Positions 14,451 through 31,620 of a stretch of DNA of 35,701 nt are shown here, piece after piece. The notes under the pieces are model-generated. The model worked only from the letters and a program-made list of their open reading frames with translations. It had not been told where the DNA came from and searched no databases. Position 1 is the first letter of the stretch; each line of letters starts with the position of its first letter. This stretch comes from a virus. The DNA is taken from the IMG/VR virus record IMGVR_UViG_3300046411_000129, positions 1 through 35,701 of that record; one strand, 5' to 3'. Position numbers and translations under genes: made by a program.

Positions 14451-14834
14451 TTATACTTCCCGCTTATCCCAGTAGTTTTGAACAGCAGCTTTGATAGCAT
14501 CCTCTGCTAAAACAGAACAATGTATTTTTACTGGAGGTAGTGAAAGCTCGTTTGCAATCTCCGTGTTTTTGATTGCCGCAGCCTCGTCAAGTTTTTTTCC
14601 TTTTACCCACTCAGTTAGCAATGAACTAGAGGCAATCGCAGATCCACATCCGTAAGTTTTGAACTTGGCGTCCTCAATGACACCGTTGTCGTTTACTTGA
14701 ATCTGCAGACGCATCACATCGCCACAGGCCGGTGCTCCCACCATGCCAGTGCCTACAGAATCGTCAGAATCGTCCAACTTCCCCACGTTGCGGGGGTTTT
14801 CGTAGTGGTCGATTACTTTGTTGCTGTAAGACAC
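14451..14834 (-). CDS. iscU: IscU-like Fe-S cluster assembly scaffold
   Basis: 127 residues, same length class as cellular IscU, from a GTG start. All critical residues are at E. coli numbering: C37 and D39 (GAPACGD), C63 (TYGCGSAIASSS), H105 and C106 (VKIHCS), plus LPPVK at 99-103, the HscA chaperone recognition motif. The N-terminus (YSNKVIDHYENPRNVGKLD) is canonical. IscU receives sulfur from IscS and builds 2Fe-2S/4Fe-4S clusters. There is no IscS, HscA or ferredoxin gene, so it must plug into host machinery. It lies in the late operon with a glutaredoxin-like gene downstream. Full conservation argues for function; acquisition from a host is inferred. Confidence 0.93.
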   Translation of the reverse strand: MSYSNKVIDHYENPRNVGKLDDSDDSVGTGMVGAPACGDVMRLQIQVNDNGVIEDAKFKTYGCGSAIASSSLLTEWVKGKKLDEAAAIKNTEIANELSLPPVKIHCSVLAEDAIKAAVQNYWDKREV

Positions 14835-15247: not shown

Positions 15248-15408
15248 CTTACTTTAGTCCTCAAGTACTCAAAAAACAGACCAGATTGGTGTTCAGCCTC
15301 ATCAATCCACAAGTTCGCCTTCGATTGTGTTGCTCTCTGGATAGCTAGAATCAACTGTTGCGCTTCCAACCCCAGTGATATTAATTTGGATCGCACTTCT
15401 GTTTCCAT
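15244..15408 (-). CDS. 54-residue protein overlapping the small terminase gene
   Basis: ATG 15408, stop TGA 15244-15246, in the +1 frame relative to the small terminase, overlapping its last 107 bases. It begins METEVRSKLISLGLEAQQLI and continues LAIQRATQSKANLWIDEAEH, ending YLRTKVS: a well-formed amphipathic helical protein. It fills the otherwise empty 15248-15301 gap, and its stop overlaps the endolysin TTG start (TTGA), which supports translational coupling. No family recognised. Confidence 0.6.
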   Translation of the reverse strand: METEVRSKLISLGLEAQQLILAIQRATQSKANLWIDEAEHQSGLFFEYLRTKVS

Positions 15409-15691
15409 CTTTAATTACGTCCTTTTCAAATGCCCCTACAGGCAGTATCCTGTCCATCACAAGTTTCCAAGCAGCAGCTTGATTCTTGTGGTCGTGGTCT
15501 AAAGCAGCATCAAAAATAGTCTCTAGAACCTTTTTTGACTTTGGTGAGGCCAACATACGGGCCTTGTATTCGTTTATGATCGCTGCGTCACCCTTAGGTC
15601 GGCCCACTTGCCCCTTGTTTCCGGGCTTCACAGCTTCTACTTCCGACTTCCGGGGTCTGCCACGACCTCTTTTTTTAATTTCTTCGGTCAT
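15302..15691 (-). CDS. Probable terminase small subunit (AT-hook DNA-binding protein)
   Basis: I prefer ATG 15691 (MTEEIKKRGRGRPRK) because the ATG at 15715 would sit on the predicted transcription start. Two AT-hook-like cores, KRGRGRPRK and GQVGRPKGD, precede a helical region (KVLETIFDAALDHDHKNQAA, WKLVMDRILPVGAFEKD) and a beta-like tail. The middle and C-terminal segments resemble small terminases of marine podoviruses. First gene of the late operon, upstream of TerL with the lysis and IscU genes between. Predicted to recognise phage DNA for packaging. Confidence 0.7.
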   Translation of the reverse strand: MTEEIKKRGRGRPRKSEVEAVKPGNKGQVGRPKGDAAIINEYKARMLASPKSKKVLETIFDAALDHDHKNQAAAWKLVMDRILPVGAFEKDVIKDGNRSAIQINITGVGSATVDSSYPESNTIEGELVD

Positions 15692-15719
15692 AACATAAAT
15701 TGTCCGTAAATACAACCTT

Positions 15720-15748: not shown

Positions 15749-15779
15749 GCTATTTTATGACCTTTTGCCAGGGACTGTG

Positions 15780-16020
15780 TTACTTTAGAAAAATCAAGTA
15801 GTTACATGTGTTTATTTTTTACATAATTTTTCTAATTTTTACCTATTTTGTGCTTGAGTGGCTGCTACAGTTACAGCGGCAACAAAAGTCCCTCCCCCGG
15901 CCAAGTTATCCACAGGTTATTCACAAGTTATCCACAGCTGTTGGCATCCTGTGGATATCCTGTGGATAATTTTCAGAGCTGACAAAAGTTATCCACAGGT
16001 TTTCCACAGGTTTATCCACA
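15780..16020. other. Putative DnaA-dependent replication origin
   Basis: An AT-rich tract (about 15780-15850, e.g. TTTATTTTTTACATAATTTT) adjoins a DnaA-box cluster. Perfect TTATCCACA occurs at 15906, 15928, 15989 and 16012 (plus) and 15961-15969 (minus); TTATTCACA at 15917; one-mismatch forms at 15950-15958 (minus) and 16000-16008. That is eight boxes in 115 bp next to a likely unwinding element, the architecture of bacterial oriC. It lies between the divergent late and early units. Direct seen evidence is the motifs; origin function is inferred. Confidence 0.85.
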
Positions 16021-16102: not shown

Positions 16103-16260
16103 TTGGCAAGAATCGTGCCAAAAGTTTCAGCTCAGGAAAAAAATTTAGAAATTTCAAAAGTTGGCACGGGAACTGCAAGGGCAAAAACCATGCCAAGTTT
16201 TACAGCTGAAAAAAATTAGTCAAACTTGGCACACTTATTGCAGGGCAAAGGCCGTGCCAA
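16103..16260. repeat. Three TTGGCA...TGCCAA inverted-repeat units
   Basis: Inverted pairs at 16103/16116-16121, 16161/16191-16196 and 16226/16254-16260. Units 2 and 3 align over their length (TTGGCAC..., TGCA-GGGCAAA, CC.TGCCAA), and units 1 and 2 share a following CAGCT...AAAAAAATT stretch. Unit spacing is 58 and 65 bp. They could be iterons, binding sites for a dimeric regulator, or tandem promoters. Confidence 0.8.
16227..16242 (+). promoter_or_regulatory. Candidate sigma54 (-24/-12) promoter
   Basis: TGGCACACTTATTGCA fits the sigma54 consensus TGGCACRNNNNTTGCW at every specified position. The previous repeat carries a one-mismatch version (16162-16177, CTGCA instead of TTGCA). The predicted start, about 16254, lies 130 bp before the first early gene, and no sigma70 promoter is evident for the early plus-strand unit. 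It could equally be a by-product of the TTGGCAC repeats. Confidence 0.45.
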
Positions 16261-16383: not shown

Positions 16384-16566
16384 ATGAAAGTGACACGTAC
16401 AAAAGTATTTGGCCGTAGCATCATCATCCGTCGACGCAAGGCCACCAAGAGAGCCCTAAACTACACTCAGGGAGAGGTATTTAACAGCGTACACGGTGGC
16501 CTCTGGTCGCTCTACTGGGAGCATGGAAAGGGCCGAAATATCGACATTTCAATCGACGACCGTTAA
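16384..16566 (+). CDS. 60-residue basic protein, first early gene
   Basis: Preceded by GGAGGG (8 bp spacing). N-terminal half is very basic (KVFGRSIIIRRRKATKRALN), the C-terminal half contains GGLWSLYWEHGKGRNIDIS. A small DNA/RNA-binding or host-takeover protein is plausible for the first early gene. It is followed by a hairpin terminator. No family recognised. Confidence 0.7.
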   Translation: MKVTRTKVFGRSIIIRRRKATKRALNYTQGEVFNSVHGGLWSLYWEHGKGRNIDISIDDR

Positions 16567-16645: not shown

Positions 16646-16855
16646 ATGCAATGGGATAGATTCGATATATGCGAAGCATATTATTGCTATGCTTGCGACT
16701 ACATGCGTGACAGAAACGATAGTAGCATTGAATTTGGGATATTGGGACGCCTGCATCGCATGGGATACCGTCCCGGTTTCGGTGGTGTTGAGTATCGTGA
16801 TTTAACAGACAACGCCAGAGCGATTTACCGTGAGCTGATTGCGAGGTATGACTAA
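16646..16855 (+). CDS. 69-residue hypothetical early protein
   Basis: I use ATG 16646 with GGAGGG 9 bp upstream rather than the in-frame ATG at 16607, which lies in the terminator. Contains YYCYACDYM (CxxC) and a C-terminal LTDNARAIYRELIARYD helix. The stop overlaps the next ATG (TAATG). It may cooperate with the GP88 protein that follows. Confidence 0.65.
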   Translation: MQWDRFDICEAYYCYACDYMRDRNDSSIEFGILGRLHRMGYRPGFGGVEYRDLTDNARAIYRELIARYD

Positions 16856-17502
16856 TGATTAAGCTATCGAAAGCAAGCAAAATGCCGGGGCGATCATGGT
16901 CGCTTCAAGCCTTGGATACTTGTCCGGGATCGATAGGTGCTGGTGGTGAATTAGTGCCTGCCTGTTCCGGATGTTATGCCACCACGGGTAACTATCGGTT
17001 TAAGAATGTCAGAGCACCACGGGAGCATAACCGGGCGGACTGGAAACGTGACAGCTGGTGTGATGATATGGTGGCGGAATTGGATAATGACCGGTATTTT
17101 CGCTGGTTTGATTCTGGCGACATGTACGACGTCCGTCTAGCGTATAAGATTCTCGAAGTGTGCGAGCGGACGCCGTGGGTCAAGCATTGGATACCTACAC
17201 GTATGCACAAGTTTAAAAAGTTTGAGTCTGTCATCCGATGGTTGCAGGATCTACCAAATTGCGTGGTCCGTCTGTCATCCGATAGCATTACGGGGGAAAC
17301 CGTAGAAGGCCCTCAAACGTCCACCATAGCGACACCAGAGACAGTACCTACCGATGCCCTAGTCTGTGAAGCTTATACCAGAGAGGGCAAATGCGGCCCT
17401 TGTAGGGCTTGTTGGGATAAAACCGTTAGTGTAGTATGCTACATAGGCCACGGTCGAAGCATGGTCAAAAAGCAAAATGATCTGATAGCAATAGGAGCGT
17501 GA
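16855..17502 (+). CDS. GP88-family Cys-rich protein
   Basis: 215 residues. Starts IKLSKASKMPGRSWSLQALD and has TCPGS...CSGCYATTGNYRF, then RYFRWFDSGDMYD, HWIPTRMHKF and RLSSDSITG, ending with CGPCRACWDKTVSVVCYIGH. I recognise these blocks as the 'gene product 88' family (PF17338 as I recall) of phages and plasmids, whose function is unknown. The N-terminal C...CxxC and C-terminal CxxCxxC clusters suggest zinc or Fe-S binding, and the CxxCYA element recalls the Gp37/Gp68 phage family. Translationally coupled to the preceding gene. Confidence 0.78.
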   Translation: MIKLSKASKMPGRSWSLQALDTCPGSIGAGGELVPACSGCYATTGNYRFKNVRAPREHNRADWKRDSWCDDMVAELDNDRYFRWFDSGDMYDVRLAYKILEVCERTPWVKHWIPTRMHKFKKFESVIRWLQDLPNCVVRLSSDSITGETVEGPQTSTIATPETVPTDALVCEAYTREGKCGPCRACWDKTVSVVCYIGHGRSMVKKQNDLIAIGA

Positions 17503-19997: not shown

Positions 19998-20231
19998 ACA
20001 AAGAACGTGCCGGTTAGTCACTGGCTAGTGTGCTCCCGCACGACGAGAAGTGGCGTCACAGTCACAGGGACGGAGCTATCCGAAAATAGTCGTTATGGCA
20101 AGCGTTAAGGGTGTAAGTAGCTGAAAACTGAGAGCAAAAGCCGGGGTACGTTGTCGCAGTTGTGAACCGGACAGGATGTGTCAGTGCTTTCACCCGCCAT
20201 TTTTCAATTAACTAACGAGGATTATCTCATT
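19998..20231 (+). ncRNA. Possible structured 5' leader RNA before SSB
   Basis: About 230 bp without a credible ORF, while all other early gaps are under about 70 bp. Short stems are visible: CACT/AGTG (20019-20030), GTGC-TCCC-GCAC (20030-20041), GTG-GCGT-CAC near 20050, and CCGG at 20140 pairing with CCGG at 20166. It is followed by ACGAGGA and the SSB ATG. It could be a regulatory leader for SSB autocontrol, a small RNA, or a protein-binding site; no known riboswitch is recognised. Confidence 0.35.
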
Positions 20232-20606
20232 ATGTCAAGCCAAGTTATTGAAGGTGTAGTAAACTTTAGCAACATCACTCAGCACGACGTGTTCAACGGT
20301 CAGGACACAGGGCAGTACTCTCTGACCATTACACTGGACGAGGACGACGCTTCGACGTTGTCTGCTAGTGGTGTTAAAATCAAGGACTATCAAGGCAGTA
20401 AGCAACGAAAGTTCAAGTCGAAGTTTAACATCCGAACTATGGACGCAGAGGGCAACCCTTATCCGGGCGAGGTCCCTTACAATTCAAAGGTACGCCTGAA
20501 GTTTAAGCTGGGTGACGCACATCCAGTGCACGGTGTAGCAACGTACCTTGAAGCCATCAAGGTGCTGGAGGAAGCTGAAGTAGCGGCATTTGACGACGAC
20601 TTTTAA
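20232..20606 (+). CDS. T7 gp2.5-like single-stranded DNA-binding protein
   Basis: Start at ATG 20232 (MSSQVIEGVVNFSNITQHDV); 124 residues. OB-fold pattern: YSLTITLDEDDASTLSASGV, KFKSKFNIRTMDAEG, VPYNSKVRLKFKLGD, GVATYLEAIKVLEE. It ends in an acidic tail with terminal Phe (AAFDDDF), as in T7 gp2.5, where this tail docks to polymerase and helicase. First gene of the replication module; its stop overlaps the primase-helicase start. Confidence 0.8.
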   Translation: MSSQVIEGVVNFSNITQHDVFNGQDTGQYSLTITLDEDDASTLSASGVKIKDYQGSKQRKFKSKFNIRTMDAEGNPYPGEVPYNSKVRLKFKLGDAHPVHGVATYLEAIKVLEEAEVAAFDDDF

Positions 20607-22210
20607 TGTCTAAGTTTCTTCGCCATGAGGGGTGTCCGGAGTGTGGTTCTTCGGACGCCCTTGCAATCTACGACGACGGCGGTAAACATTGCTTTGCCGC
20701 TGGTTGCGACCACCATGTCAACGGAGGTACAGTGGAAGAACCTAAGACTGCTAACGCCAAGCCTCTACAGATGTTTGGTGTGGTTAGCAACATACCCCAA
20801 CGACGCATATCCAAAGAAACGTGCGCTCGCTTTGGGGTCACAGTTGAGTACTCCAGTGAGGGTCAGGTAGAAAAACACTACTACCCCTACTACGAAGTAG
20901 ACTCAAAAGAGATCGTAGCCGCCAAGGTAAGGCACGTTAAGACAAAGAACTTCCACGCCACTGGTGACATGACCAAGGCTGGTTTCTTTGGACAACAGCA
21001 GTGCACGTCCAACAAGTTCCTGACGATTACTGAAGGAGAGTTGGACGCCTTGGCTGTCTACGAGATGCTAGGGAAGACAGCGTATGACGTAGTGTCGTTA
21101 CGTAACGGTGCTTCCAACGCAGTAAAAGAACTGAAGCAACATCTGGAGTGGCTGGAGAGCTACGACAAGGTGGTGCTATGTTTCGACAACGACAAGGCCG
21201 GAGAAGCCGCTCTGGAGCAAGTGAAGGACCTGTTCAGCCCCAACAAGCTGAAAATCTGCAAGCTGCCGACAAAGGACGCTTCGGACATGCTGATGGCGAA
21301 CAACGTCAAGGACTTCACAAAACTCTGGTGGAACGCCAAGGTGTACCAACCTGACGGTATCGTCGCTGGTATCGACACTTGGGGTACTCTGGTCGAGAAG
21401 CGAAAGGTCAAGTCCACCCCGTATCCGTGGGAGGGCTTGAATCATATAACCAGAGGGCATAGACCTTATGAACTCGTCACGATCACTAGCGGTAGTGGTA
21501 TGGGCAAATCCCAGTTTATTCGGGAGATCGAATATGACCTTCTATGCAGATGCGAGGGCAATATTGGCGTCTTGGCCCTTGAGGAAGATTTGGCCCGAAC
21601 AACGCTTGGTATCATGTCGGTGGCGGCAAACAGGCCCCTTCATTTGGAAGAGGATACGCCAGTGGACGAGCTTCGGCCCTTCTGGGAATCCACATTGGGA
21701 ACAGGACGTTACTACCTTTTCGACCATTGGGGATCGACTTCAGCAGATAACCTGCTCTCCCGTGTTCGCTACATGGCAAAAGCCCTTGACTGTAGGTACG
21801 TCATACTGGACCACCTGTCCATCGTCGTGTCTTCCCAAGAGTCCGGAGACGAGCGAAAAGCCATTGACGAAATTATGACGAAGCTTAGGACGTTAGTAGC
21901 AGAAACAGGCATCACCTTGTTTCTCGTGTCACACTTGCGTCGGTCACAGGGCAGGGCTCACGAGGACGGTGCACAGATCAGCTTGGGTGAGTTGCGTGGT
22001 TCACAGGCAATTGCTCAGCTGTCCGACATCGTAATCGGCATGGAGAGGGACCAGCAACACACCAACGAAGACATCAGGAATACGACTACCGTACGTGTCC
22101 TGAAGAATCGTTACACTGGTGAAACTGGACCCGCTTGCTGGCTTGCGTATGACCGGGGAACCGGACGTTTGACTGAGGTGGCTAATCCTGAAATAGGGGA
22201 CGATTTTTGA
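20606..22210 (+). CDS. Bifunctional primase-helicase (T7 gp4 type)
   Basis: 534 residues. Zinc-binding domain C10, C13, C29, C34 (CPECG...CFAAGC); TOPRIM motif TEGELDALAVYE near residue 142 and CFDNDKAGEAA; RecA-type helicase with Walker A GSGMGKS (about 296-302), Walker B VILDHLSIVVS (near 398) and VSHLRR. It unwinds the fork and makes primers. The C-terminus NPEIGDDF is acidic with terminal Phe, the same polymerase-docking feature as T7 gp4 and as the neighbouring SSB. The stop overlaps the polymerase start. Confidence 0.96.
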   Translation: MSKFLRHEGCPECGSSDALAIYDDGGKHCFAAGCDHHVNGGTVEEPKTANAKPLQMFGVVSNIPQRRISKETCARFGVTVEYSSEGQVEKHYYPYYEVDSKEIVAAKVRHVKTKNFHATGDMTKAGFFGQQQCTSNKFLTITEGELDALAVYEMLGKTAYDVVSLRNGASNAVKELKQHLEWLESYDKVVLCFDNDKAGEAALEQVKDLFSPNKLKICKLPTKDASDMLMANNVKDFTKLWWNAKVYQPDGIVAGIDTWGTLVEKRKVKSTPYPWEGLNHITRGHRPYELVTITSGSGMGKSQFIREIEYDLLCRCEGNIGVLALEEDLARTTLGIMSVAANRPLHLEEDTPVDELRPFWESTLGTGRYYLFDHWGSTSADNLLSRVRYMAKALDCRYVILDHLSIVVSSQESGDERKAIDEIMTKLRTLVAETGITLFLVSHLRRSQGRAHEDGAQISLGELRGSQAIAQLSDIVIGMERDQQHTNEDIRNTTTVRVLKNRYTGETGPACWLAYDRGTGRLTEVANPEIGDDF

Positions 22211-23841
22211 TCTATCTGGATCTTGAAGCTGACGGCCTGAACCCAACGACGATTTGGTGCGTTGTTACCCGCTACAACGGGGTAAACACCGTCCATACAC
22301 GTCCAGATACGCTACGAGAGGCTCTGTGTGGCTCTCTGAGCGTCGTTGGACACAATCTAATAGGGTACGACCTCCCTGTTTTAGAACGTCTCTGGGGGCT
22401 TTCTGTGGCTCCTGAGAGGGTCATAGATACGTTGGTTTTGTCCCGTCTTTTCGACCCTAGCAAGTCTGGTGGGCATTCTTTGCGGAACTGGGGAGAGGAA
22501 CTTGGCTTCCCGAAAGGGGACCACGACGACTGGACCTGCCTGTCTCCTGAGATGATCGACTACTGCATGAGGGACGTTGAGGTGACTGAAGCTGTACACA
22601 AGAAGCTTGTCACCGATATGTCTGAGTTTTCAAGGCAGTCCGTCGAACTGGAGCACAAGGTTCAGTACGTCGTCCAGCAACAGGAGCGCAATGGCTGGGT
22701 ACTTGACCAAGAGCTAGCAAGAGAGCTTTGTGCAACATTCAAGGAGCGCATGAATGAAATTGAAGAGGATCTGCAGGCGATTTTCCCGCCGATCATTGAG
22801 CAACGCTACTCAGAAAAAACAGGTAAGCGTCTCAAAGATAAGGTCACTGTCTTTAATGTCGGATCACGGCAACAGGTGGCCGACAGGCTTACGTCTAAGG
22901 GTGCTGTATGGTCGGAACTCACTCCGACAGGCAAACCAATGGTTGATGAGAAGACGCTTAAAGAGAATAGTCATGTTCCCGAAGCGGAACAAGTACTTGA
23001 GTACCTCTTGCTTCAAAAACGATATGCACAAGTAAATTCGTGGTTAGAGCATGTGGAGGATGACGGTAGGGTTCATGGTCGTGTAATCAGTAACGGTGCT
23101 GTGACTGGACGGATGACACACCAAAGCCCTAACATGGCTCAGGTTCCAGCAGGTCATAGCCTGTTTGGACATGAGTGTCGCTCTTGCTGGATTGTACCTC
23201 AAGAAAGCAAGTTAGTTGGGTTCGACGCTAGTGGCCTAGAGCTACGTATGTTGGCCCATTACATGAATGACGAGGAGTTTACTAATGTCCTACTTAGAGA
23301 AGACATACATACCAGAAATCAACAGGCTGCGGGACTTGAAACAAGACCTCAAGCAAAGACTTTCATCTACGCTTTCCTCTACGGAGCAGGGGACGCTAAA
23401 ATCGGAACTATCGTCGGAGGAACGGCACGAGACGGCAGAACTCTTAAACAACGATTTTTACGAAATACACCTGCTCTTGAAAGTCTTAGAGAACGCACTG
23501 CTAGAGCAGCTGGGCGTGGTTATCTTACAGGACTCGACGGAAGGCGTCTTAGAGTTAGATCCGAACACTCTGCACTAAACACTTTATTACAGGCGGCTGG
23601 TGCTATAGTGATGAAGCAGGCTTTGGTTACTCTTGATGACTACGCAAAGCTTTGGAACATTAACTACAAATTCGTAGGGAACATCCATGACGAAGTACAA
23701 TCGGAGGTGGTTGCTAAACAAGCAGAGAAGTTCGGCTGGCTCGCAGTGGAGTGCCTCAAGGCGGCTGGGATTTCTTTTGAACTCAGATGCCCACTCGACG
23801 GAGAATACAAAATCGGGGCAACGTGGGCGGAGACACACTGA
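22207..23841 (+). CDS. Family A DNA polymerase with 3'-5' exonuclease (T7 gp5 type)
   Basis: 544 residues from TTG 22207, overlapping the helicase stop (TTGA). The exonuclease motif I (YLDLEADGL) begins at residue 3, so no later start is possible. ExoII VVGHNLIGYD, ExoIII YCMRDVEVTEA. Polymerase motif A D340-ASGLELR; motif B R380, K384, Y388, Y392-G393 (AKTFIYAFLYG); motif C H494-D495-E496. The E. coli 762 position is Tyr, as in T7. It is about 160 residues shorter than T7 gp5 and seems to lack the thioredoxin-binding insertion, so processivity may come from the SSB/helicase contacts. Confidence 0.96.
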   Translation: MIYLDLEADGLNPTTIWCVVTRYNGVNTVHTRPDTLREALCGSLSVVGHNLIGYDLPVLERLWGLSVAPERVIDTLVLSRLFDPSKSGGHSLRNWGEELGFPKGDHDDWTCLSPEMIDYCMRDVEVTEAVHKKLVTDMSEFSRQSVELEHKVQYVVQQQERNGWVLDQELARELCATFKERMNEIEEDLQAIFPPIIEQRYSEKTGKRLKDKVTVFNVGSRQQVADRLTSKGAVWSELTPTGKPMVDEKTLKENSHVPEAEQVLEYLLLQKRYAQVNSWLEHVEDDGRVHGRVISNGAVTGRMTHQSPNMAQVPAGHSLFGHECRSCWIVPQESKLVGFDASGLELRMLAHYMNDEEFTNVLLREDIHTRNQQAAGLETRPQAKTFIYAFLYGAGDAKIGTIVGGTARDGRTLKQRFLRNTPALESLRERTARAAGRGYLTGLDGRRLRVRSEHSALNTLLQAAGAIVMKQALVTLDDYAKLWNINYKFVGNIHDEVQSEVVAKQAEKFGWLAVECLKAAGISFELRCPLDGEYKIGATWAETH

Positions 23842-28252: not shown

Positions 28253-30259
28253 CTATTGTCCCTGTGTCTGGTCTGAAGTAAGCATTCTTGCCAGCTGCTT
28301 CTCAACATACTGCACAGCAACTTCTCTCTCGCCTTCAGACATTTCGTCGATGATTTCACTTACCATAATGTTTAAGGCTAACTCAGCGTTGGCACTTGCT
28401 TTTCCTCCAGCAGACAACAAAGTAATAAGCTTGTTGACGTACTGTGGGTTGGTCACGACTTTGGCAAAAACATTAGGAACATAAAGTGCCGCTGCTCCAA
28501 TACCAATCCCGATTCCTGCAGAACCGGCGGCAGTGCCACCAACAACCGCAGCCCCCGGAGCTATTCCTCCCCTCAAAAGCGTACCGGCTCCTTTAAGTCC
28601 TTTAGTTTCCAGCCCTCTCAAAAACAGAGCACCTGTATCTCCTGAGGCAGATTCAGCAGTTTCTCTAATTGCATTCATCAGCTGATTAAATCTAGGGAAA
28701 GCAGGCCCAAGAACTTCTTGGAATATTTTCCGCTGAGTAGGGTTATCCAACTGAATAGCTAAGGTCCTTAGCTGTTGAACATTTGCTACGTCGCCTGACA
28801 AAACCTTGGTAAGTTTTTCTGAAAGAAAACCTTCCCTGAAAAGCCTGTCGACTTCTTCAAACGACTGTACAGACAAGGTTTCTCCAGCCTTCTTAGCAAC
28901 AGAGTACGCTTCTGCCAAGCTTTTCTTCAGTGCTTGAACCTGTTCCAGCCTACTGCCCTTGGCGGCAATATTACCAAGTGACGTGTAGGCCCCTTTAGCT
29001 GCTTGAGTTACAAACCCCGCATTAACTTTAGGCATCATGGCGTTAATAGAGTTCCCGTACGCTTCTTTTAGTGCCTTGTATTCTGCCGCAGCTTTAGGGT
29101 CTATCCTTTCCAAAGTATTTAGTATTGTTTGTCTAATGACTTCGGAGGCTTCCTGAAGCTCTGCGTGAATAACGTCGTTTCTACCGGCTCCTGCTTTAGG
29201 TCCAAACGCAGCGTTAGCTCTGTTGGTAAACGACTTGTCGATCATAAGCAGTTCTGAAACTCTTACCTGACCCGACTGCAAATCCTTAATTCTTTGCATT
29301 GAGTCACGAATAAACTTCAGTGTTTCAGGCTGTACTTTGTCAGCTGCTTGTCCAGTTAAAGTCCTTATGTAAGAATCTATAGGATTAGTCAGAAAACGAC
29401 CATCAATAGTTTTAAAAGTTACCGTAGACAAGGACCTGTTTATTTTGTCTAAGCCCATGCCGTACTGCTTTCTTAAAACTTCTACGCCTTCATCAATTAG
29501 CGTACTAAACGTACTGCCCATGTTGTAGGCATCGTTTGCCATTCCGCTGGCGTTCCTGTTTATCAAATCATTTAAAGAGTCAACGATGGCGTTATTAACG
29601 GCTTCGATGTTAGCAGCCATCTTTTCTCTTGAGATCAAACCTACAGACGCAATCCTCTCTCTGAAGCTATCAAGACCTGACTTCAATACTTGAGAAGGAA
29701 GAAGTGTCGCTCCTTTAGCCTGCAACAGTTTCTGAGTAGCAGCCAAAGACTCTGGAGAACCGGCAGGTAAAACAAGGTCAAGTGCTTCTTGAGCAGTTTC
29801 TTCGACGGATTTTCCATTACGCATACGCAAGGCGTACCATGCAGGCTTGAGTTTAGTCAGGATGCCCATAGTAGCTACGTCTATACCAACAGACCACAAG
29901 GCTGCTTCTATGCCTTCTTTGTAGGCTTCTACAGTAGTTGACCCTTTAAGCTGCTCAGACTGTGCAGTACCGTATCCAGTACCTAATGCACCCATTGTGA
30001 TGCCGCCAACAACGGCCCCCGGAGGGCCTGCTACCGCAAAACCTCCTACAGTTCCTGCCATTGCCGCTCCAAGACCATAAGGCAGGTCCAAGTTCTCTTC
30101 TAAGAAGCTAAGCTCTGGTGCAGGAGGTGGAACAGTGTCGTCGTCAGTTTCTTCTTCTTCAGGAACAGCAGACTTCCCTGTGTACAGTTCCATCTGAGCT
30201 TGGAAACCACTTTGGCTTGGCTCTGAAAGCTTCTGCATTGTCTCTTCAAAAGTGCTCAT
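28253..30259 (-). CDS. Internal virion protein, 668 residues
   Basis: Acidic N-terminus (EEEETDDDTVPPPAP), Gly-rich hydrophobic hairpins at about residues 60-100 (GLGAAMAGTVGGFAVAGPPG) and again at about 580-625 (GGTAAGSAGIGIGIGAAALY), separated by a long helical middle. Position after tail tube, nozzle and two other internal proteins fits the ejection-core proteins that form a DNA channel across the envelope, like T7 gp15/gp16. No lytic transglycosylase motif seen. The start overlaps the preceding stop (TAATG). Confidence 0.7.
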   Translation of the reverse strand: MSTFEETMQKLSEPSQSGFQAQMELYTGKSAVPEEEETDDDTVPPPAPELSFLEENLDLPYGLGAAMAGTVGGFAVAGPPGAVVGGITMGALGTGYGTAQSEQLKGSTTVEAYKEGIEAALWSVGIDVATMGILTKLKPAWYALRMRNGKSVEETAQEALDLVLPAGSPESLAATQKLLQAKGATLLPSQVLKSGLDSFRERIASVGLISREKMAANIEAVNNAIVDSLNDLINRNASGMANDAYNMGSTFSTLIDEGVEVLRKQYGMGLDKINRSLSTVTFKTIDGRFLTNPIDSYIRTLTGQAADKVQPETLKFIRDSMQRIKDLQSGQVRVSELLMIDKSFTNRANAAFGPKAGAGRNDVIHAELQEASEVIRQTILNTLERIDPKAAAEYKALKEAYGNSINAMMPKVNAGFVTQAAKGAYTSLGNIAAKGSRLEQVQALKKSLAEAYSVAKKAGETLSVQSFEEVDRLFREGFLSEKLTKVLSGDVANVQQLRTLAIQLDNPTQRKIFQEVLGPAFPRFNQLMNAIRETAESASGDTGALFLRGLETKGLKGAGTLLRGGIAPGAAVVGGTAAGSAGIGIGIGAAALYVPNVFAKVVTNPQYVNKLITLLSAGGKASANAELALNIMVSEIIDEMSEGEREVAVQYVEKQLARMLTSDQTQGQ

Positions 30260-31620
30260 TATTGATACGCCTTCATAATTTGATCGTAAGTGTACGTTCC
30301 GTTTTTAACAGCTTCCATTGCGTCTGGCCTGTCTTCTGCAGGCAAACCAAAGAAGTCAGACTCTATCACAAGACCCTTAGCACGTCTGTAGTCATCATAA
30401 GTAGGGGACTTAGCCATTGTAATTGAGTTCTGCAGTTCGTTCTCTGCGTTCTGCAATAGCACACTGAGACGACCAATGTTTACTTCTTCATTGTCCACAT
30501 AGTCTATAATGCTTTGGATAGCGTAGTTTCTCTCACCGTCCGAAATAGCACCAGCAAAGCCCTGAAGACGTCGCATAACGGCTTCGGAAAGTATACCGGC
30601 TAAACGACCTTGGGACTGAGGTATTTTTTCTGAGCCTATAAAACGAAGAAGTCCTTTAGACATTTGCCGTGGAACGCCACCGGTTCTAACTTCGTTAGTA
30701 GCCAAAAGATTAATGGCTTCCTGAAGAAGACCTGAGGTTTGCTGAAGCTGGTCCACTCTAAGAGACGCCTCTACTCTGTGACCAGCGTAGTCTGTCTCTA
30801 GCTTTTCTCGCCTAGCCATTTCAGGTTTGTCGGTCTGTACCCTTAAGTCTTTTTGGTCAGTACGCACTAAATTCTGTCCAGTATAAGGTTTACTTCCGGG
30901 GTCGGGTGTAATTGGCCCTCTTTGTGTTGATCCGTCCTTCATTACCATTTCTACTTGAGTATAAGTATCTCCGGTAACTGGGTCCCTAAAGTACAATACA
31001 ATACTTCTCTGAACATTTGGGTCCTTACCGCCAGTCTTAAACTCATCAAAGATTTCTCTGGCTCGTGTCGGAGTAACACCTTCCATTTGAGAAGCGCCCT
31101 TGAAGTAATCGTTTACGTCCTTAGGGCTTTCAAAATCAAAGTTAGGGCTAGACAGCACTTGCTGCAAAAGACCTTCTTGAGTTTGTGTATCCTGTTCACG
31201 CATAAGCTGACGTACGTTTCTAACCTCTTCAGTTCCACCAAGGCCCTGAATGTCCTGCAAGAGGTAGTCAGGAACTGCTTCTCCTCCTCTAGCCATTTGT
31301 GACGCTACGTCCACAGCACTAGCAAGCTCACCTTTTCTCTTGGTGTCCTTCATTTTAGTAGCAGTAGCCGACACTGCTGAAGCAGCCTGATTTCGGCCCA
31401 TAGCCCTAAGCTGCTGAGCAATGTTAAACAAAGCTACGTCGTTGTTGTTTTTCTGAGCTTCGGAAGCTTTCGCCATAAGAGCGTTAAACTCGTCGTCGGT
31501 TTTCTTAGCTCTGTACTGAGCACCTATGCCTCCAAGAGCTTGCCCCGTTTGGAACATGCTTCGACCAAAGTCGGGTCTTGCCAACCCACTCAGTACTTCA
31601 TTTGAAATGTTAATAGCCAT
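30259..31620 (-). CDS. Internal virion protein, 453 residues
   Basis: Almost entirely helical with Gln/Ala-rich segments (EAQKNNNDVALFNIAQQLRA, LRVDQLQQTSGLLQEAINLL). A beta-like insertion (RSIVLYFRDPVTGDTYTQVE) sits mid-protein. Similar helical proteins sit between nozzle and terminal ejection protein in marine podoviruses. Assigned by position and composition, likely part of the internal core. Confidence 0.65.
   Translation of the reverse strand: MAINISNEVLSGLARPDFGRSMFQTGQALGGIGAQYRAKKTDDEFNALMAKASEAQKNNNDVALFNIAQQLRAMGRNQAASAVSATATKMKDTKRKGELASAVDVASQMARGGEAVPDYLLQDIQGLGGTEEVRNVRQLMREQDTQTQEGLLQQVLSSPNFDFESPKDVNDYFKGASQMEGVTPTRAREIFDEFKTGGKDPNVQRSIVLYFRDPVTGDTYTQVEMVMKDGSTQRGPITPDPGSKPYTGQNLVRTDQKDLRVQTDKPEMARREKLETDYAGHRVEASLRVDQLQQTSGLLQEAINLLATNEVRTGGVPRQMSKGLLRFIGSEKIPQSQGRLAGILSEAVMRRLQGFAGAISDGERNYAIQSIIDYVDNEEVNIGRLSVLLQNAENELQNSITMAKSPTYDDYRRAKGLVIESDFFGLPAEDRPDAMEAVKNGTYTYDQIMKAYQ

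Follow-up and report, generated by a model that had tools for sequence, protein, structure and literature searches.

A phased DnaA-box array beside a candidate unwinding element in a lytic phage family

Several replicons borrow the DnaA protein of their host. Phage lambda (O/iterons, DnaA-linked transcription), P1 oriR and RK2/pSC101 do so at their origins. These systems pair DnaA boxes with iterons for their own initiator; no such initiator is recognised in the DNA described here. The consensus of the DnaA box is TTATnCACA (PMC5742627), and in E. coli oriC the cooperative arrays have a gap of 2 bp from one site to the next (PMC6727663). The datA locus likewise combines a DnaA-box cluster with an IHF site; the available part of its description gives no melting site (PMC5742627), whereas the phage boxes are closely phased beside one. 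In the literature covered (many subscription papers lie outside its scope), a search for comparable DnaA origins in phages yields only a prediction made with Ori-Finder for a different phage (PMC11512268) and a note on T5 (PMC13250531), the injection stop signal of which is described as containing DnaA boxes.

The window analysed here is a whole 35.7-kb virus record (35,701 nucleotides) with bidirectionally organised genes. Judging from its sequence, the junction at 15.78-16.02 kb is probably a phage replication origin which borrows host DnaA. It shares with an E. coli-type oriC the TTATnCACA cluster, the 2-bp gaps, blocks of opposite orientation, an IHF site and an adjoining low-stability AT-rich tract. 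Whereas oriC has mostly low-affinity boxes, almost all boxes of the phage array are strong consensus sites; and, unlike oriC, the array sits in a lytic phage which has its own helicase-primase and no dnaA gene.

Gene content and probable host

The replication genes of the window are shared with T7 (Studiervirinae). A gp2.5-like SSB, a gp4-type primase-helicase and DNA polymerase A (PolA) are encoded at 20178-23841 (+); all were assigned with PHROGs, and the primase-helicase and PolA also with Pfam. Endonuclease I is present too, as are a Cas4-type exonuclease and a class II-type RNR. The initial annotation described the phage as T7-like, which is true of this replication set but not of the rest: the portal and adaptor are SU10-type, the gene layout is divergent, and T7-type RNA polymerase is missing. 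The absence of the polymerase had been correctly noted. The window and nine relatives, array-bearing and array-free ones among them, have no PF00940 match, whereas the positive controls phiEap-1 and P483 were detected. With respect to the Autographiviridae, the window therefore has the T7-type replication genes but lacks the single-subunit RNA polymerase. The lack of a polymerase had also been offered as the reason for the DnaA boxes. This does not hold, since relatives without boxes lack the polymerase as well and some polymerase-bearing T7-like phages carry boxes.

The first gene to the left of the junction (15302-15715, -) adjoins the TerL and lysin genes. It has a Pfam AT_hook match and no PHROG match, and from its position it is a putative terminase small subunit (TerS); the AT-hook core is found in 86 of 87 homologues. 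On the right are a first small early ORF (16384-16566, +) and a GP88-family early gene (16855-17502, +; PF17338, E=4e-30). Two large late proteins of 668 and 453 aa, encoded at 28253-31620 (-), have no Pfam or PHROGs match. Tandem repeats of 78 bp are found at both contig ends (1-183 and 35167-35691), inside a repetitive gene which is probably a tail-fibre gene. The contig probably broke in this repeat; the genome may thus be nearly complete and circularly permuted.

A NifU/IscU-like Fe-S scaffold gene occupies a late-gene position (14451-14834, -) and is present in only one of 154 related loci. Its product shows 85-90% identity to Halieaceae proteins, for instance those of Luminiphilus. The gene was probably acquired recently from a Halieaceae-like host, and this identity suggests that the host is a marine gammaproteobacterium. 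Genomes of probable hosts have TTATCCACA boxes near dnaA, so the same box should be recognised in the phage. Only 2-3 exact boxes occur per 8-9 kb examined, and the phage array, with six TTATNCACA, is richer in consensus boxes than these dnaA regions; it should compete well for host DnaA. The array does not appear to be a copy of host oriC: the probable host genomes contain neither a tandem 11-bp pair nor a TTATNCACA pair within 30 bp on the same strand.

The DnaA-box array and its flanking elements

The array lies in the noncoding stretch between the leftward TerS gene and the rightward early genes, which begin at 16384. Within 115 bp (15906-16020), pattern matching finds eight DnaA-box-like 9-mers with at most one mismatch to TTATCCACA: five copies of TTATCCACA and one each of TTATTCACA, TTTTCCACA and ATATCCACA. 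The first block, on the plus strand, consists of TTATCCACA (15906-15914), the position-5 variant TTATTCACA (15917-15925) and TTATCCACA (15928-15936). The second is on the minus strand and contains the degenerate box ATATCCACA (15950-15958) and TTATCCACA (15961-15969). The third returns to the plus strand with TTATCCACA (15989-15997), the degenerate box TTTTCCACA (16000-16008) and TTATCCACA (16012-16020). Two same-strand blocks are thus separated by one of opposite orientation. Successive boxes are 11, 11, 22, 11, 28, 11 and 12 bp apart, which is mostly one helical turn. At a period of 11 bp, successive 9-mers are separated by 2 bp, which matches the cooperative oriC arrays of E. coli.

The initial annotation had reported eight boxes, five of them perfect, in 115 bp beside an AT-rich tract, and both pattern search and shuffling bear this out. 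The 11-bp phasing, the C-rich tract CCCTCCCCCGGCC and the IHF consensus were not part of that annotation. The maximum in 20 mononucleotide shuffles is two boxes per ~110 bp, against eight observed; a chance origin of the cluster is thereby ruled out. In the whole window there are 12 sites with at most one mismatch, the four outside the array being scattered singles. Dinucleotide shuffles have a mean of 8.2 such sites, and 11 of 100 shuffles have 12 or more. The total is thus not unusual, and the signal lies in the clustering.

DnaA tolerates substitution at position 3 of its box. In 29 related arrays (318 units, the counts from which overstate the evidence because the sequences share ancestry and are not independent), 109 boxes are singly substituted; position 5 is affected in 54 and position 3 in 40, which accounts for 94 of the 109. 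Positions 2, 4, 6, 8 and 9 are fixed at 99%, and 224 of 252 neighbouring box pairs keep the 11-bp register. In the window, the five perfect boxes and the position-5 variant likewise fit TTATnCACA, with variation only where DnaA is tolerant. A sister phage with 93% DNA identity over portal and TerL has a rearranged array; the order of boxes is different and there are 11-bp unit differences, but the consensus is kept. Such turnover with retention of the consensus points to selection on binding. It is very likely that host DnaA binds the sites in the window. Minus-strand runs resembling DnaA-trios next to the boxes are longer than in shuffles (2.1 versus 0.6), an excess for which A-runs alone could account.

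To the left of the array is a candidate duplex unwinding element (15779-15848). With a nearest-neighbour energy of -74.6 kcal/mol it ranks first in the window as the least stable 70-bp stretch; AT content is 83% over the 60 bp from 15781. This tract contains a perfect match to the IHF consensus AATCAAGTAGTTA (WATCAANNNNTTR; 15792-15804, +). The consensus keeps this offset in 26 relatives, and among high-scoring cores the proportion is 26 of 43, compared with 1.1% in shuffles. It is followed by a conserved core element (..TAATTTTTACCTATTTTGTGCTTGAGTGGCTGCTACAG; 15801-15870, +), which adjoins the TerS gene in both box-bearing and box-free relatives. The C-rich tract CCCTCCCCCGGCC (15890-15902, +) lies between the AT-rich tract and the array and is also conserved in relatives; the array starts immediately after it. 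The order from left to right is therefore IHF consensus within the AT-rich tract, core, C-rich tract, array, sigma54-like sites and early genes.

The stability of the core tract differs between array-bearing and array-free relatives (Mann-Whitney p 7e-7, or 1e-5 within high-scoring cores). Among long relatives, no site is as unstable as the core in nine of 15 with an array and in none of 27 without one. Only four independent pairs are available on supported branches; on average 1.7 of them go in the same direction and none in the opposite one, which is not significant. A DnaA-dependent origin is expected to have several DnaA boxes in helical register, an adjoining AT-rich unwinding element of low stability and, commonly though not universally, a site for IHF or another architectural protein. 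The junction has all of these: the phased boxes, the tract from 15779, and the IHF consensus at 15792-15804 with its conserved offset. An array and a melting site together are the prediction of an origin and not of a pure decoy.

Cumulative GC skew had been put forward as a check on the origin and turns out to be uninformative. It changes sign at 15.9 kb and a second time at 28.1 kb, a point of gene convergence, and not at the antipode at ~33.7 kb. The flips occur where gene direction changes, so the skew tracks the direction of transcription and gives no independent support to an origin. The noncoding flanks at the junction differ only slightly in skew.

Beyond the array, five sigma54-like -24/-12 sites (two +, three -) occupy 155 bp at 16105-16259; the best is TGGCACACTTATTGCA at 16227-16242 (+). 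Junctions of relatives have 1.09 such sites per locus against a background of 0.003. They mostly point at early genes, and they are commoner where the DnaA array is absent. RpoN-driven transcription of early genes is possible. Some of the sites overlap TTGGCA-N7-TGCCAA palindromes, so a factor other than RpoN is also possible.

Distribution among relatives

Relatives were collected by means of their primase and GP88 proteins, and arrays were also sought in a separate DNA-pattern scan which ignored proteins. At least 29 contigs from the pattern scan have a TerS homologue (44-89% identity), and in every one of these 29 the distance between the array and the 5' end of TerS is 137-936 bp. It is found at the junction of TerS and early genes in about 30 close relatives and also in distant ones, with TerS identity down to 44%. 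The position of the array is thus strongly conserved wherever an array exists. Presence is another matter. The initial annotation expected boxes to be conserved at the divergent junction of relatives; this is correct for position, but among 80 distinct junctions (window included) three or more TTATNCACA are found in 29, two in six, and at most one in 45.

Relatives that have no array retain TerS and, in many cases, the core with its IHF site. Their replication genes are closely related to those of array-bearing phages, with primase identity typically above 80%; this machinery therefore has no strict need of DnaA. On the TerS tree, which is weakly resolved, presence of the array switches 14 times, and identical or near-identical TerS proteins are found both with and without arrays. 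Most array-bearing relatives have early genes in common. The first small early ORF is present at 20 of 23 array loci and at four of 41 loci without an array. Two candidates were considered and rejected as phage-encoded initiators of relatives without arrays: a protein resembling pyrimidine-dimer glycosylase (172 aa as translated), and an ORF of 96 aa without significant match.

The same region of box-free relatives contains other short repeats, namely AACACAAG, CCTAAG/CCTTAGG and TGTCAACA. Four junctions (L130, L131, L135 and L150) are filled with CCTAAG/CCTTAGG repeats, which recur before downstream ORFs; other relatives use AACACAAG/AACACGAG in the same manner.

Phased DnaA-box arrays are also found in at least 81 contigs (within L158-L275) which have no protein related to the window. 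Some of these unrelated contigs have their arrays near other TerS families (phrog_51 and the Nu1-type phrog_57). The phased DnaA-box theme looks widespread. Repeats of TTATCCACA outside genes are present at the left end of phiEap-1 (L276), in P483 (L277), in T5-like terminal repeats and in several Microviridae records, all of them unrelated phages, cultured or assembled. T7-like phiEap-1 and P483 and the T5 injection stop region share with the window this location outside coding genes. In phiEap-1 and P483, however, the repeats are spaced more widely, at 21-34 bp apart from one 11-bp pair in P483, and both phages have the RNA polymerase. These cases, together with the T5 stop signal, indicate that DnaA boxes in phages can have other roles.

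Among cultured phages there is no near DNA match and no TerS match, and TerL is at most 44% identical over half its length. Vibrio phage 1.157.O, among the best of these half-length TerL matches, was set aside as a relative; it is differently organised and has tail-tube genes. Three cultured GP88-bearing records (L358-L360) have no array in the portion examined. For this lytic phage family, no cultured relative with the junction was found.

Alternative readings and the proposed origin

The array might serve as a decoy in the manner of datA, titrating or inactivating host DnaA so that host initiation halts and nucleotides and replisomes are freed; the origin would then lie elsewhere or be DnaA-free. 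Titration had been named at the outset as an alternative use, and it is retained here, as a by-product or, less likely, as the main purpose. Six TTATNCACA in the array against 2-3 exact boxes per 8-9 kb in host dnaA regions would suit such a function, as would the patchy presence expected of an accessory weapon. Same-direction boxes with IHF are a feature of datA too, so the anatomy alone is compatible with it. In E. coli, initiation is impaired when datA is present in additional copies (PMC5742627). A decoy would nevertheless have no need to be placed consistently next to the genome's least stable DNA, or to start consistently behind the C-rich tract where TerS meets the early genes, and we consider it rather unlikely. 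Somewhat less probability is given to a packaging or genome-end element, in which core and repeats would be a cos/pac or terminal-repeat region used for maturation or stepwise DNA entry. Models are lambda cosB with its IHF site, the T7 short repeats beside the terminal repeat, and the T5 injection stop signal. The core adjoins TerS, whose AT-hook could bind the AT tract; the TTATCCACA repeats of phiEap-1 and P483 are noncoding and near one end of the linear record; T5-like terminal repeats contain a short matching stretch; and the TerS families phrog_51 and phrog_57 occur near some unrelated arrays. Against this, the degeneracy of the boxes is DnaA-like and is common to phages with unrelated TerS. 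Contig ends are not clearly enriched at the junction and so give no sign of a fixed genome end there.

Control of transcription has also to be considered. DnaA on the array might activate or repress the divergent early and late promoters and so couple expression to host DnaA-ATP. The array does sit between late (TerS) and early genes, with a sigma70-like site (15748-15720, -) on one flank and the sigma54-like sites (16105-16259) on the other, and RpoN is present in eight of nine probable host genomes. Promoters regulated by DnaA usually carry one or a few boxes, however; 5-10 phased boxes exceed this, and such a role leaves the association with an extreme melting site unaccounted for. Such a switch is improbable. 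It is far less probable again that the boxes are iterons for a phage-encoded initiator which merely resemble DnaA boxes. Other short repeats do occupy the same region in box-free relatives, but a search of the window, and of genes associated with presence of the array, found none that resembles an initiator, and the exact TTATNCACA rule coincides with the DnaA consensus as published.

The preferred reading is thus an origin at which host DnaA is used. Hijacking of host DnaA for melting had been suggested initially, and it remains the best explanation for the behaviour of the boxes, the conservation of the junction and the presence of the melting site; binding, melting and helicase entry are the steps we infer. 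The reading is also backed by the phage's own helicase, primase, SSB and polymerase and by the failure to find a PF00940-type RNA polymerase. Host DnaA would assemble on the array as a cooperative, helically phased oligomer, and IHF would bend the DNA at the left edge of the junction. The strain would melt the adjoining AT-rich tract. The gp4-type primase-helicase, being self-contained, could enter the bubble without a DnaC-type loader, and phage replication would then start with PolA. As a side effect, host oriC would face competition for DnaA from the amplified phage DNA; titration may accordingly be a by-product of the origin.

The array is real, selected and oriC-like, and it extends the known theme of replicons which borrow DnaA. 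More tentatively, the phages may form a large, so far uncultured lytic podovirus family with a T7-type replisome, in which a bona fide host-DnaA origin with IHF, unwinding element and phased DnaA filament is combined with a self-loading gp4-type helicase, the array is an exchangeable cassette gained and lost among close relatives, and these change between initiation with DnaA and initiation without it. The question can be tested directly, as there are matched relatives that have the same core and differ in whether they carry the array. How T7-type replisomes start without a phage RNA polymerase matters for very abundant marine phages. If the DnaA origin is true, phage replication would be tied to the cell-cycle state of the host, and the junction would offer a minimal natural setting in which to test melting by DnaA together with a helicase that loads itself.
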